Positions 51,123-58,026 of a stretch of 64,000 bases of DNA are shown piece by piece. Every line of letters begins with the position of its first letter. The stretch's first letter is position 1. The notes beneath the pieces are model-generated. The model was not told the DNA's origin and made no database searches. It saw only the letters and a program-made list of their open reading frames with translations. Origin of the DNA: Clavibacter sepedonicus (GTDB taxonomy: Bacteria > Actinomycetota > Actinomycetes > Actinomycetales > Microbacteriaceae); assembly GCF_000069225.1 (NCBI RefSeq), contig NC_010407.1, positions 806,001 through 870,000 on the forward strand. Direction: 5' to 3'. Made by a program: the position numbers and the translations under genes.

Positions 51123-51371
51123 CATCGCGGCCAGGCCCTCAAGAGTCGTGAGTCCATGGGTCGGGCGGGCGATCGGTGGAGAGGAGCCTGTGAGCGTGGG
51201 CCGGTCAAGTCTTGGGTGGGGTGCGAGTCGACTCTGCTGGCGAGCGGGGCGACGACGGTCTCCGCATCGGAGCCTCCCCGCACAGGGCGCGACGTCTGTG
51301 GCGACATCGCACCCCGCGCCGGGCAGGATCACGAGGATTCCTTAGGTGACGTAGAAGGCGTGACCCGTAAG

Positions 51372-51620
51372 TCAGTACCCGCGCGGTGTGTCGCGCCTGT
51401 CGCTCTCGCGTCGTTCCTCGGTGACCGGCTCAACACCTTCGCGTCGCCTTCGAGCCCGGTACTCCAGGAATCCGACGATCAGAAGGACCCCAGTGGCACC
51501 GATCGCGATCCCTTGGACAAGAGCCCGCTCGGTGGGAAGGACGATGCTCAGAGTCCCGACCCCGATCAAGATCACGAAATAGAGGACATCCGATGGCCTG
51601 GCGTTCTTGATCTTGTTCAC
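51372..51620 (-). CDS. small two-helix membrane protein, possible immunity protein
   Basis: From GTG 51620 the 82-residue protein has two hydrophobic helices (VLYFVILIGVGTLSIVLP and LVQGIAIGATGVLLIVGFL) and a highly charged tail (YRARRRREGVEPVTEERRES). It starts 7 nt after the stop of a secreted-protein gene, so the two form an operon. Small membrane proteins in this position often confer immunity to a secreted antagonist; nothing in the sequence proves that. Base composition is lower in GC than the flanks. Confidence 0.55.
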   Translation of the reverse strand: MNKIKNARPSDVLYFVILIGVGTLSIVLPTERALVQGIAIGATGVLLIVGFLEYRARRRREGVEPVTEERRESDRRDTPRGY

Positions 51621-51627
51621 TACCGCC

Positions 51628-52525
51628 TCATTCGCAATTCGAATGATCAGTGCGGACCCAGGGGCGGTTGGCCTCGATACGCGTCTGGTAGCAGGTCGAG
51701 AACCCGTAGGTTCCGGAATTGTACGCGTCTCTCACGAAGCCGATGATGTCTCCGAGCTTCGGTGCCCCGAACGCCGCGCAGCCAGCGATGATGAACCACT
51801 TCACTGCACTTGGGATCTTCGAAGACGCTGCGCACAGTCCAGCGACACCTGTTGATCCGAGGAATGCGGCTGCAGCAGCGATCGCACGCATCTGCGAGCC
51901 CAGGAGGTTCACGTAGAAGCCAACACCTTGGGCAGCGTTGCCGAGGCCGAAGGTGACGAGCGGATCCACGGCGACGGGGAACGCGGCGTGATCGGGATCG
52001 ACGGTCTGAGTGAGCGTGTCCCCAGCGAGTGAGAAGTGGGTCGCGACCGGGCGACCATGGGCATCGACGGCCCACGGAGCGTCGATGTGCCCGGCCGTGA
52101 TGCTTCCGGCGCCAGGCTCGAGAGCGGACACAATGTCAAATCCGGTTCCGCGGGCCACAGCGTGGAAGCCATCGGGGAGGCGGGGGGAAAGGAGGTCGAG
52201 CGGGCACCATCGCGCAGTACGGTGACCGCTTGCACTTCTCCCGAACGGACTTGGACCAGGGACTCCTCTGGCAAAGCCGACGTGACGCTCACCGCCCGGC
52301 GGCGGTGGGAAGGGCGGCGGCGGGGGTCAGACTGCTCGGAGCTGACCAGTCGAGCCCGACGCGTTCGCGTTGACCGACGGCCACGAGCGCTCTATCTATT
52401 ACTGCATGAGTTGACTGGTCGTTCGTCCTGTCAGCTGCCGAGACGGCTTCGGCCGTCAGGCCGTTGACGCAGATGGTAACTGCCAGAGCGAGGAGCATCG
52501 TTGCTCCCCGGACATGAGCTTTCAT
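51628..52525 (-). pseudogene. decayed secreted protein with actinobacterial 'AVDAxGxPVxTHF' repeat region
   Basis: ATG 52525 starts a clear signal peptide (MLLALAVTICVNGLTAEAVS, cleaved after VSA). The frame is lost near 52290-52330, continues in a second frame (TSALPEESLVQVRSGEVQAV) and shifts again near 52180-52215. The third frame reads ITAGHIDAPWAVDAHGRPVA, THFSLAGDTLTQTVDPDHAA, FPVAVDP and a hydrophobic C-terminal domain ending with four Cys in about 75 residues. The middle is common in secreted actinobacterial proteins with variable C-termini, some antibacterial. Two frameshifts make it a likely pseudogene. Confidence 0.6.
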
Positions 52526-52620
52526 CGGGTTCCATTCGATTTGCGACGCCCAGCGGCGTCGCGCCGAACATACGCATTCGGGAGGCGCGTGCGCCGAGCT
52601 CCTGCACAGGCGTGGCACCG

Positions 52621-54676: not shown

Positions 54677-54931
54677 GGGGATCCTCCTGAGGCGGCGCCG
54701 GGACCCCGTCTCGCGGATGCGACGGTCGGGCCCGGCAGCATCGTCGGCCCATCGTGCCGCTGCCGGGCGGGAGGCGGGTGGGCGTGGAGCGTGCGGTCAT
54801 GCGGGGGACGGTTCGCGGATGGTGCGGCGGGCGGCGGGACGGCCTCGAAGCGCCCGTCGACAAAAATGTCGGTATAAGAGCGAGGGCACGACAAGCGAGG
54901 ACGGAACCGAGCCCAATGATGGCGCTTATTC
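54677..54931. other. intergenic boundary between permease gene and low-GC island
   Basis: About 255 bp without a credible gene. The GC content falls sharply near 54860, where CGACAAAAATGTCGGTATAA begins. This marks the left edge of the low-GC island. I see no insertion-sequence end or tRNA here. Confidence 0.4.
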
Positions 54932-55414
54932 CTAGCGCTGTTCCTTCTTTGTCAATTGGTTCAGTCTCATGATGACCCTCCTTCCGGCTTCGACAGCGGC
55001 GTGCAGTTTTTCGAGCTGCTGATGATTCAGTGATACGGGCGTACTTGCTCCGTCCGGCAACCGGCATCTCCCGACCGCGGCCGCGAACTGCTCGCTTAGC
55101 CGGGCGAGGCGCCCGTCGGCAAGCTGCTCTGCCCATTCGTCGAGTCGTTCCACACGAACGTGAGAGCCAGGCGTACTAAGAGCAAGCAGGTGGTCTGCGT
55201 GTTGCTCACCTCGACTGAGGGTGTTCAAAAGCTCATTCACAACAACTCGCAGTTCTGGCGGCACGTTGGAGACTCGTCGCGCTGTGGCCTCTCGGTTCGT
55301 CTGGACCAACGCGAGGACGCTGATGCCGATGCTCACAATAGACGCGATCAGTGCGATCCAGTCGACACCGGGAGCGCTCGGGGATGCGGAGGCCAACACG
55401 GCTTCGGTCAGCAT
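54932..55414 (-). CDS. single-pass membrane protein with long helical cytosolic domain, function unknown
   Basis: The 160-residue protein has one N-terminal transmembrane helix (WIALIASIVSIGISVLALVQ, residues about 19-38) followed by a helical domain with NREATARRVSNVPPELRVVV, RLDEWAEQLADGRLARLSEQ and LNHQQLEKLHAAVEAGRRVI. GGAGAAGG precedes the ATG. It is divergent from the sce7726 gene with only 38 bp between, so their promoters overlap and they may be co-regulated. Its GC content is well below the window average. Family unknown. Confidence 0.7.
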   Translation of the reverse strand: MLTEAVLASASPSAPGVDWIALIASIVSIGISVLALVQTNREATARRVSNVPPELRVVVNELLNTLSRGEQHADHLLALSTPGSHVRVERLDEWAEQLADGRLARLSEQFAAAVGRCRLPDGASTPVSLNHQQLEKLHAAVEAGRRVIMRLNQLTKKEQR

Positions 55415-55439
55415 GCCTTCTCCGTCTGCCGACCACCGG

Positions 55440-55445
55440 TATCGT
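55440..55445 (+). promoter_or_regulatory. leaderless -10 of the sce7726-family gene
   Basis: TATCGT ends 7 nt before GTG 55453 and no ribosome site is present. Confidence 0.4.
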
Positions 55446-55452
55446 CTCTGGT

Positions 55453-56064
55453 GTGAGAGATGTCGACATCCGAGCGGCGCTGATCGCAGGCATTCGCCGC
55501 GACCACCCGGACCTCAGCGAGAACCGAGTATGGTCTGAGCTCGCGGTCGTGCTGGGCGCCTCGCGAGTGGACGTGTGCCTGGTAAATGGGGCGCTGACCG
55601 GCTGGGAGATCAAGTCCCCGCGCGACAACTTCGACCGGCTCGACGCGCAGATCCTCCACTACGACCAAGTGCTCGACTTCGCTCATATCGTAGTCACCTC
55701 CAAGGACATCCAGCGAGCTCGCATGCGGGTTCCTGCGCGGTGGGGCATCGTTGAGGCGACTGAGCAGGACGGCGTGGTCTCGCTAAAAAGGCGTCGACAG
55801 GCCAGACAAAACCGAACCCCTAAGCCTCTAAGCCTCGCGCAACTGTTGTGGCGTGATGAGGCCATGGATGAGTTGCGAACACGTGGGGTGACCGGTTCCT
55901 GGAGTAAAGCGACCCGCTGGGATCTCTGGGACGCTCTCGTCGCAGTGCTCACGGTCGACGAGCTTCGTGCGGCAGTCCGAAGCCGTCTCAAAGCTCGCCC
56001 CGCCCGCGAAGCTGATCGACCATATACGCAAGATGGTGCGATGTCGCCACGGCTCGCCAAGTAG
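55453..56064 (+). CDS. sce7726-family protein with PD-(D/E)xK-like motif
   Basis: From GTG 55453 the 203-residue protein begins VRDVDIRAALIAGIRRDHPD. It contains Glu29 (VWSEL), Asp40 (SRVDVCLVNG) and Glu52-x-Lys54 (GWEIKSPRD), spaced as in PD-(D/E)xK nucleases, then FDRLDAQILHYDQVLDFAHIVVT and a C-terminal helical part. This is the start and core of the sce7726 family, whose function is unknown. A nuclease-like activity is inferred from the motif. Its 3' end overlaps the Beta-family gene on the other strand by 77 bp. Confidence 0.8.
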   Translation: MRDVDIRAALIAGIRRDHPDLSENRVWSELAVVLGASRVDVCLVNGALTGWEIKSPRDNFDRLDAQILHYDQVLDFAHIVVTSKDIQRARMRVPARWGIVEATEQDGVVSLKRRRQARQNRTPKPLSLAQLLWRDEAMDELRTRGVTGSWSKATRWDLWDALVAVLTVDELRAAVRSRLKARPAREADRPYTQDGAMSPRLAK

Positions 56065-57124
56065 AAGCGTTCCCTGTGCCTACGCGTGCGGGGACAGTAA
56101 CGTCCTCGATTGCGCTTGCGGCGGCCTCATGAACGTAGTGATCTCCCCAGGATGCCTCCGGCGAGGTCGCATCCCGCCCAAGTTCATCAAGAATCTGAGC
56201 GCATATGTCGTAAAATTGCTTATGTCCACGACGTTCCTGACGCTTACCTTTGCGCACTATCCAGTCGCGGTCCTGCGTGTAGCGCAGTTGTGGGGGTGCG
56301 GCAAAAGCAGCGCCTACGGGAAGGGTAGGGTGGGTTACTCCGTAGTCACTGAACTGTAGACCTCCGGCGATGGCGAGGTCGAAGTCGCGGAGACTCTCCC
56401 ACAAGTGATAGTCCCATCGTGGAATTCTGGCTGACGAAAATGCCTGCACTCCAGCCAGATTTACTGGGAACGCGCCGGCAGCGACCGATAGGCTCGCCCA
56501 ACGAACTTCGTCGAGCTGTGGCAGAACAAAACGTGCGAGACGCGCGGCGAGCTTCATTGGGCCTTCATCGGTCACGGCGCCGAAGTCAAGGAGCACCGAG
56601 ATGTCAGAGGTCGGTAATCCTAGCCCACTCGCGACATCACCAACCAATCGTCGCAGTGGAATAATTGACTCATCTAGGTCTTCAGCCGTGACTCGAATCA
56701 GGGCGCGTGAGATCCCCGTGGCTTCAAGTACGCTTCCGATCTGGCTCACATATGAGGCGTCCGCTGACGCGCGGATCGCTGGCGCCACGGACACGTCTGA
56801 TGCTGACAATTCATGCAATAACTGAGCAAGAACGGGCCTGCTAGTACGCCAGTTCTCTGAACCGTCGCCAAGGTCGGGTTCGGCATAGGCCGCGTCGATA
56901 TAGGCAATGGCCCGCTTCTGGTCCCAAGCGCGCTTGATTCGCCGAACGGCTGAGTCAATTTCTGGCTGGTCCTCGACATCACGGGTTTCTACAGTGGAGT
57001 CCTCCTGGCGCTCCCAAGGCGTTACCTCGATCACAGGCGAGAGGTCAGGACGCCGGATGTCGTCCCAGTTCTCGAGCGCCTTGAGTTCGCCTTGGCGCGC
57101 CTTCAACACTGGCAAGTAGGTCAC
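55988..57124 (-). CDS. Beta-family protein (T4 beta-protein type)
   Basis: The 378-residue protein begins MTYLPVLKARQGELKALENW, the typical 'Y-x-P-x-L-K-x-x-x-G-E-x-x-A-L' start of the Beta family, shared with sce7725-type proteins. It continues ISRALIRVTAEDLDESIIPL, ISVLLDFGAVTDEG and DWIVRKGKRQERRGHKQF, and ends AYMVDQLRGRGEL. Alternating strands and helices suggest a TIM-barrel-like fold. Biochemical role unknown. Beta/sce7725 genes commonly sit beside sce7726 genes, as here. GTG 57124 follows GGAGCG. Markedly low GC. Confidence 0.8.
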   Translation of the reverse strand: MTYLPVLKARQGELKALENWDDIRRPDLSPVIEVTPWERQEDSTVETRDVEDQPEIDSAVRRIKRAWDQKRAIAYIDAAYAEPDLGDGSENWRTSRPVLAQLLHELSASDVSVAPAIRASADASYVSQIGSVLEATGISRALIRVTAEDLDESIIPLRRLVGDVASGLGLPTSDISVLLDFGAVTDEGPMKLAARLARFVLPQLDEVRWASLSVAAGAFPVNLAGVQAFSSARIPRWDYHLWESLRDFDLAIAGGLQFSDYGVTHPTLPVGAAFAAPPQLRYTQDRDWIVRKGKRQERRGHKQFYDICAQILDELGRDATSPEASWGDHYVHEAAASAIEDVTVPARVGTGNASTWRAVATSHHLAYMVDQLRGRGEL

Positions 57125-57449
57125 GTTTGGCGCTCCTGGTTCGTCGTTAGCACGTCAAGACCTGATTTGAGTCCGTAGCGCGAACATAGCGCACAGAATA
57201 CGCTGACGGTAGTCAAATGGGGCGCATCCGCAGGGTGATTTCAGCTCAAACCGCGTCCGTCGACGGCACGATCGGCAACAGGACTCGACGCATTGCCGAA
57301 GCGGGCGTCGGTCAACGAATGCCATTTGTACCGCAAGCCGCCGAGGGGTAGGGGTGCCTGCTCCCGATTGACATGCGCCTTCCGGTCTGGGTTCGACTTC
57401 GGCCGCCTGACTGGGGGGCGCCGAGCGTCCTCCAGCTATTTGACGCGGA
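57125..57449. other. low-GC intergenic region, no gene seen
   Basis: About 325 bp between DUF3892 and the Beta gene. On the reverse strand it contains TTGACT and TATGTT, a possible but poorly spaced promoter for the Beta gene. Short open frames present have no support. Confidence 0.35.
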
Positions 57450-57698
57450 TCAACAGTTCTCGAGATTATCTAGGTTATTAGGCGAGTAGTCGTCTGGTGC
57501 AGTGGTCAGGTACGGCTGGCCCTTGCGTGTGCCGACGCGGACGTAAACGCTCCTGCCGTGGACTGAGACAAAATATGAGTTGAGGCCAGTGCGGATGTGC
57601 CCGATGACTTCGGACTTGCTGTGGTTCCAGCCGTACCCACAGAGGCCAGTGATGTCTCCGTCGATGTCCTTCTTGCTCTTCGTAACTTGCAGTGCCAT
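57450..57698 (-). CDS. DUF3892 family protein
   Basis: The 82-residue protein reads ALQVTKSKKDIDGDITGLCG, SKSEVIGHIRTGLNSYFVSV, YVRVGTRKGQPYLTTAPD, and ends YSPNNLDNLENC. The family C-terminal 'PNNLDNLP-x-C' motif is clear. Its function is unknown; members occur as single small genes in variable DNA. GAAGGGG precedes the ATG. It is the right-hand gene of the low-GC island. Confidence 0.85.
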   Translation of the reverse strand: MALQVTKSKKDIDGDITGLCGYGWNHSKSEVIGHIRTGLNSYFVSVHGRSVYVRVGTRKGQPYLTTAPDDYSPNNLDNLENC

Positions 57699-58026
57699 GG
57701 TGACCCCTTCGTCGGCAGCTATGTCCAGCTAGAGCAAGTGTGAGCGGATGGCAGCGCGCACCTCTACCCCCTGTCCGGGCCGAAGGGCCACGCTCTCGAT
57801 GCGCGGAAGAGTGCGCGAACGGCGCACGTGCATCTGCACAAAAAGTTGGAGAGGCGGGCAGGTTCGCGCCGAGTAGGGCGAGGCCTCAGCGGCACCGATT
57901 TACAGCCCGTCCACTGCCTTGCTCCGGGCTCGTGCAGGACATCATCACCCCGCCCGATGCGCCTAGCCTCGACAGGGGCCGCGCCGCACGGCCGCCCCAC
58001 CGGATCCACGAGGAAGAGGAACGCGC
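57699..58026. other. intergenic region at the right edge of the low-GC island
   Basis: About 330 bp. The left 150 bp is still mixed in composition with no credible gene; the right part holds the promoter and ribosome site of the SDR gene. No repeat matching the left island edge was found by eye. Confidence 0.4.
57964..57969 (+). promoter_or_regulatory. -10 element of the SDR gene
   Basis: TAGCCT lies 57 bp before ATG 58027. A GAGGAAGAGG ribosome site lies between. Confidence 0.45.

Follow-up and report, generated by a model that had tools for sequence, protein, structure and literature searches.

A convergent sce7726/cII–Beta gene pair with overlapping 3′ ends and a divergent membrane-protein gene: a candidate phage-conflict module in Clavibacter sepedonicus

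The window analyzed here is a 64,000-nucleotide stretch of Clavibacter sepedonicus (NCBI RefSeq assembly GCF_000069225.1, contig NC_010407.1, positions 806,001 to 870,000), in which a variable block of four genes lies between a Kup potassium transporter gene and an SDR gene (Table 1). The block encodes a small membrane protein (denoted as M), an sce7726/cII-family protein, a Beta-family protein, and a DUF3892 protein. The four open reading frames (ORFs), and the families assigned to them in a sequence-only reading of this stretch (NF033832, PF14350, and PF13031), are all present. The same reading described an island of low guanine-plus-cytosine (GC) content at 54860–57750, close to the limits found here. 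The GC content of the block (54862–57948) is 60.2%, against a mean of 72.6% (s.d. 3.1) for 245 overlapping 3-kb windows of the 64 kb, none of which falls below the block value, even among those overlapping the block. In blastn comparisons with the corresponding intervals of 17 congeneric genomes, the conserved flank on the left stops at 54861 in six genomes and at 54746–54839 in the rest, and that on the right restarts at 57947–57956.

Table 1. Features of the variable block, in window coordinates.
Feature	Position	Strand	Description	Evidence
Variable block	54862..57949	.	Between the Kup potassium transporter gene and the SDR gene	blastn of 17 congeneric intervals
M	54932..55414	-	160 aa; N-terminal hydrophobic segment; putative third component; divergent from sce7726	8 homologues; dN/dS 0.13
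Possible -10 element TATCGT	55440..55445	+	7 nt upstream of the sce7726 GTG	Read by eye
sce7726/cII-family protein	55453..56064	+	203 aa; probable PD-(D/E)xK nuclease; E29, D40, E52, K54, Q66	NF033832; PADLOC cll; invariant residues
sce7726/Beta overlap	55988..56064	.	Tail to tail, 77 nt; Beta stop antisense to the Leu179-Lys180 codons	ORF coordinates; frame analysis
Beta-family protein	55988..57124	-	378 aa; homologue of P4 Beta and PD-lambda-2 C	PF14350; PADLOC
DUF3892 protein	57450..57698	-	82 aa; island cargo, probably not a component	PF13031, 1e-9

The sce7726 protein matches NF033832 with 150.5 bits (cut-off, 70) and the PADLOC profile cll with an E-value of 2.9e-22. Translation likely starts at the GTG at 55453, rather than at the longer-ORF start at 55351; the NF033832 match begins just downstream of that GTG. 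Numbered from this codon, the placement of Glu29, Asp40, Glu52, and Lys54 proposed earlier is exact, and the four residues are invariant in all 54 aligned sequences, as well as in a nine-sequence set that includes the cII protein of P4. They follow the E/D...D...E-x-K pattern of PD-(D/E)xK nucleases. The protein is probably such a nuclease, a call based on the conserved motif and on one depositor's label of "exonuclease" for the homologue in Gordonia phage Powerball. When compared with the PDB by sequence, neither the sce7726 profile (best E, 0.24) nor the Beta profile gave a meaningful match. Judged from these family matches, the protein is a homologue of P4 cII. At the place corresponding to the possible -10 element, TATAGT was read by eye in four relatives. 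Since these hexamers lie so near the GTG, they suggest a leaderless sce7726 mRNA.

The Beta-family protein matches PF14350 (Beta_protein, 2e-61), a family named after P4 beta. Among the PADLOC profiles, it scores higher to PD-Lambda-2_C (1.3e-37, 127.8 bits) than to the beta of P4 (4.8e-10, 36.7 bits). The protein had been likened to the sce7725 family, an assignment that we reject: it has no NCBIfam match, hhalign against sce7725 (NF033831) returned a probability of 8.9% over about 65 N-terminal columns, and a genuine sce7726–sce7725 pair exists as a separate, co-directional locus in the same genome. Beta is rare and accessory, occurring in three of 396 genomes sampled from the phylum. A search with Beta alone against viral contigs found no relative. 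Only a quick tree was built for this protein.

The sce7726 and Beta genes had been described simply as frequent neighbors. They do adjoin, with the correction that they are convergent and overlap at their 3′ ends. The arrangement was compared across 104 loci with an sce7726 ORF, comprising the window, P4, three other phages, two plasmids, four loci from the genus, 21 viral contigs, and 72 genome contigs (loci are denoted L and genomes G; L093, one of the four from the genus, comes from the window's own genome). The search peptides, of the NGA[LM][TS]G[FW]E and QLLWR types, both lie outside the overlap, and a four-sequence sce7726 set was used for the relative search, the nine-sequence alignment being too diverse. 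Beta is present in 73 of these loci and missing from 31. In all 73 loci having both genes, the two converge; apart from that of P4, every intact pair overlaps at its 3′ ends. Six pairs from plasmid and phylum searches brought the total to 79, for which the frame was read from the top-scoring ORF for each gene. The overlap length is 2 mod 3 in 73 of the 79 pairs, and in 60 of 65 once near-copies (more than 80% alike in the last 120 nt of sce7726) are removed. Five pairs of the non-redundant set depart from this rule, namely P4 (27-bp gap), a split frame (L116), a contig end (L164), and two alphaproteobacterial pairs that overlap in another frame (L167 and L178). Split genes in L105, L116, and L138 yield negative overlap lengths, L138 being counted as 2 mod 3 by arithmetic; measured to the nearest fragment, the three overlaps are 11, 26, and 20, all 2 mod 3.

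In 44 of the 79 pairs, the Beta stop is exactly antisense to Leu/Ile–Lys/Arg codons (Ile–Thr in one case) of the conserved LKxR motif of sce7726; of the remainder, 28 share this frame but fall on different codons, five misfit, and two could not be placed. Because LKxR is visible in most Beta-less sce7726 copies too, it reflects a protein constraint that the Beta stop uses. By the tree labels of the genome loci, pairs occur in ten phyla (Actinomycetota, Acidobacteriota, Bacillota, Bacteroidota, Chloroflexota, Dormibacterota, Myxococcota, Nitrospirota, Planctomycetota, and Pseudomonadota). The pairwise distances of the two proteins are correlated over 61 loci, from which six truncated or split loci and near-copies had been dropped (Mantel r, 0.61; none of 2000 permutations equally high). 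The simplest reading of the shared frame is that the overlap descended as a unit from a common ancestor.

The membrane protein had been suggested as a third component, and the wider comparison agrees. Its most hydrophobic 19-residue stretch starts at residue 19, with a mean hydropathy of 2.54. Searches with phmmer and a profile identified M homologues in eight loci, namely the island of the window, that of a second species of the genus (G009), and six more, each lying head-to-head with sce7726 at a distance of about 30–95 nt, depending on start choice. Run against the 10,908 ORFs of the 104 loci, the profile returned these eight and no other match below E 0.3, with leave-one-out E-values of 2.8e-9 to 6.4e-41 in the same database. 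The hosts are Actinomycetota (the window genus twice, Arthrobacter, Actinotalea, Mycobacterium twice, and Aldersonia), the remaining locus being a viral contig. Among the 396 phylum genomes, with about nine candidates scored per genome, only the window genome (G000) and a weak match inside a 699-aa frame were found; among 18 congeneric genomes, M occurs in G000 and G009, with a further weak match containing a stop. No match to M was obtained in PADLOC-DB 2.0.0 at E up to 1. Judged from its conserved position, M is a real third gene and the third component of these loci. We had also considered M as a passenger, as tblastn at 1e-3 gave the two islands only; the six homologues added by phmmer and the profile at the same position overturned that view. 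In a Flavobacteriales metagenome-assembled genome, a 179-aa protein with an N-terminal hydrophobic segment, as judged by eye, ends at the Beta start (L122, 2214–2750). It is not a clear homologue of M (E, 0.49) and is perhaps an independent membrane partner.

Third partners vary from locus to locus and include Gop, Xre-IrrE, FRG, and M. Xre-IrrE proteins (PD-Lambda-2_B) upstream of Beta account for seven of 140 neighbors from 39 genome loci, and they also occur on plasmids L007 (by PADLOC), L196 and L198 (by Pfam), and L200 (by annotation). An FRG protein lies upstream of Beta in L130, and a second is among the 140 neighbors. Of the PADLOC families, 185 were matched by the 140 neighbors (two from each side of the 39 pairs) and 53 by 137 neighbors (three per side) of 25 of 29 Beta-less loci, PD-Lambda-2_B not being among the 25 families listed for the latter. 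This comparison covered proteins of up to 900 aa, the two sets are unlike in taxa and sampling, and a large share of the families is generic; it is not used as proof.

The position of the block was examined in 18 genomes of the genus, the window genome and 17 others. The Kup and SDR flanks are found in all 18, near each other and in a single order, with 740–9336 bp between the two flank queries. The block occupies this site in two of them (G000 and G009), and a third congener, G011, carries a distinct sce7726–Beta pair at another place. In three of the 18 (G010, G013, and G017), the site holds type I restriction-modification genes, which favors a role of the block in conflict with phages or mobile elements. 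The PADLOC scans covered all three of these genes (R, S, and M) in G010, S and M in G013, and S in G017; similar N-termini and equal lengths served to assign R in both G013 and G017 and M in G017. The two block copies differ at 17–19% of sites per gene, and their synonymous divergence (dS) is 0.71–1.19, against 0.105 in the adjacent core gene; this points to a functional unit that was acquired separately or exchanged long ago. Against the congeneric copy, the ratio of non-synonymous to synonymous divergence (dN/dS) is 0.05–0.13 for all four genes, and the frames are intact in both species. This purifying selection indicates that all four are real genes. On its distribution in relatives, the block is accessory and transferred. 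The DUF3892 gene was rejected as a component of the module, since it occurs only in this island and that of G009 among the loci searched, and it is probably cargo. Elsewhere in the window, a second, smaller GC dip (about 61–67%) spans 51250–52500, with minus-strand ORFs at 51628–52158 and 52289–52618.

The pair is carried by phages, P4, viral contigs, and plasmids. With tblastn, sce7726 relatives were found in 13 phage records, including three P4 entries that name the gene cII or sce7726 family, and Beta relatives in four, all with a converging sce7726 (two of these records represent one phage). An sce7726 gene adjoins Beta in all 15 plasmid records with Beta, of which eight were inspected as sequences and seven assessed by the annotation under the match alone; seven of the eight inspected pairs are intact and convergent, and L199 has both genes broken. 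All three Beta-bearing congeners have sce7726, as do two of the three Beta loci in the phylum sample. Separately, a group of Obscuribacterales-type loci (L162, L163, L174, L177, L179, and in part L175) has a Beta-less sce7726 within a shared gene order, followed downstream by a DNA polymerase III alpha-like gene. The DnaE of L174 was confirmed by PDB matches (best, 3e-127). Two further genes in these loci resemble imuA and imuB by eye; the imuB-like protein of L162 had no PDB match.

The pair had been regarded as having no assigned function, a statement that is outdated, since two systems with published anti-phage activity contain relatives of Beta. In one of them, gop-beta-cII is reported to confer protection from lambda and P1, with Gop being toxic when beta is missing; the two likely act as toxin and antitoxin, and gop-beta-cII is called non-essential (Rousset et al. 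2022, PMC9122126). As in P4 (NC_001609), the cII and Beta genes of the window are homologous and convergent; in contrast, P4 has gop 2 nt from beta, and cII and beta do not overlap, their gap containing an annotated putative terminator. No same-strand ORF of at least 60 aa that could correspond to Gop ends within 300 bp upstream of the window Beta, and only the DUF3892 gene lies farther up. The second system, PD-lambda-2, is described as three genes, and its component C, "related to a P4 phage antitoxin", is required for defence against lambda-vir; the term sce7726 does not appear in the main text (Vassallo et al. 2022, PMC9519451). The window Beta is homologous to C, whereas the HigB-like A and the Xre-peptidase B are absent from the block; on plasmids, Xre genes adjoin cII–Beta pairs. 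As separate observations, HigB-like/Xre-IrrE pairs resembling PD-lambda-2 A–B lie on four plasmids (L201–L204) with no adjoining beta or sce7726 annotated, and these records are absent from the plasmid matches of both families; therefore, the toxin half also exists apart from the Beta half. On the Acinetobacter plasmid NZ_CP014478, the Xre-IrrE and sce7726 ends of a PD-lambda-2-type locus (L205 and L206) are separated by DNA that is bordered by IS30-family transposases and carries resistance genes.

A third arrangement shares the sce7726 family and has an sce7725 protein whose N-terminus is Beta-like. It differs in its co-directional genes, in that sce7725 belongs to another family (NF033831), and in its third gene, which encodes a RES-domain protein; the pair is listed with such a protein on a mobile element in one published study (PMC9394441). 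This arrangement occurs in the same genus at L093 3880–6744 (G000:C2 ~419045–421909) and L095 2871–5735 (G005), with RES matches to PF08808 of 1.5e-20 and 3.6e-23, and forms a parallel class whose third gene is of another toxin type. That an opposed layout can regulate is reported for the convergent type II restriction-modification systems AhdI and Esp1396I (PMC5333194) and for noncontiguous operons of prophage immunity genes (PMC11364771). These pair a dangerous or immune gene with its partner in opposed units; no homology is claimed, and similar regulation may apply here by analogy.

We consider it fairly probable that the block is a horizontally acquired phage or mobile-element conflict module, M–cII–Beta, representing a variant of the gop-beta-cII/PD-lambda-2 family. 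Since relatives of the pair protect Escherichia coli, this is probably a little-known antiviral module. The earlier proposal of a defence module stands as to the anti-phage activity of the relatives, the accessory block, and the residue pattern, and falls as to DUF3892 and the sce7725 identity. In the proposed mechanism, cII would be the nuclease effector, and Beta would be a controlling partner that restrains the toxic part and is needed for the response, roles carried over from P4 beta/Gop and PD-lambda-2 C. M may be membrane-anchored in the role held elsewhere by Gop, Xre-IrrE, or FRG proteins; its position and hydrophobic segment suggest a part in detecting infection at the membrane or, alternatively, a second killing activity. 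When a phage infects, the balance would be upset and cII, M, or both released, with destruction of the infected cell or the phage DNA. Within the overlap, transcription of either gene would be antisense to the end of the other, which may tie their dosage, and the overlap may keep cII and Beta inherited as one unit.

Several observations weigh against this interpretation. The block lacks the Gop of P4 and the HigB/Xre-IrrE genes. M is missing from 65 of the 73 loci with the pair (the six later-added pairs lay outside the group search with M), the mycobacterial M proteins are weakly hydrophobic, and in L120 the maximum lies at residue 118. A same-strand ORF of at least 100 aa that ends no more than about 60 bp from where Beta starts was found in only 18 of the 73 loci, some perhaps not genes, and not in the other 55. 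In relatives, ordinary genes frequently fill the Kup–SDR site, among them, as judged by eye, MFS permease or hydrolase-like genes, so that the site is plastic, not a defence-only hotspot. The Beta of G221 in the phylum sample had no sce7726 in the stretch examined, and many of the 31 Beta-less sce7726 loci share neighbor genes (contig ends were not excluded). Five Beta-less loci lie near the polymerase gene by eye, one of them confirmed, indicating that the domain is not always a defence gene.

As a rather unlikely alternative, the genes could be a toxin–antitoxin addiction module that secures maintenance of the island or plasmid and plays no part against phages. The tight pairing, the overlap, the plasmid carriage, the reported Gop/beta relationship, and the RES-domain genes beside sce7726–sce7725 in the genus would all fit it, but gop-beta-cII and PD-lambda-2 defend against phages, and nothing in the block has a family match to a small toxin. 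We find it quite improbable that the genes are accessory cargo encoding a nuclease and regulator linked to DNA repair or replication rather than directed at phages: the polymerase-adjacent sce7726 copies that suggest this are those without Beta, which is itself rare and found on phages and plasmids. A chance gathering of unrelated cargo around a decayed pair, to which the unlinked DUF3892 gene might point, is largely refuted, as all four genes are intact and under purifying selection in two species and a single M–cII–Beta layout recurs in eight loci.

Beyond the module reading itself, we advance a more speculative proposal, held with less than even confidence. The cII and Beta proteins may form an ancient, antisense-locked immunity core of the gop-beta-cII, PD-lambda-2-like, and M–cII–Beta loci, combined with interchangeable toxic or membrane partners; PD-lambda-2-like loci would then have an overlooked fourth gene, and the overlap would set the ratio of the nuclease to its keeper. 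To our knowledge, no mechanism for such a shared core has been described. The families and the two defence systems were already known; what is new is the fixed-frame convergence, M as a third gene, and the varying third partners. In the portions of the open-licence literature available to us, we found neither the conserved frame of the convergent pair, nor a cII gene next to PD-lambda-2, nor M described. An antisense overlap held in one frame over ten phyla is unusual and directly testable, and, if the proposal is true, gop-beta-cII and PD-lambda-2, found in separate studies, would share a core.

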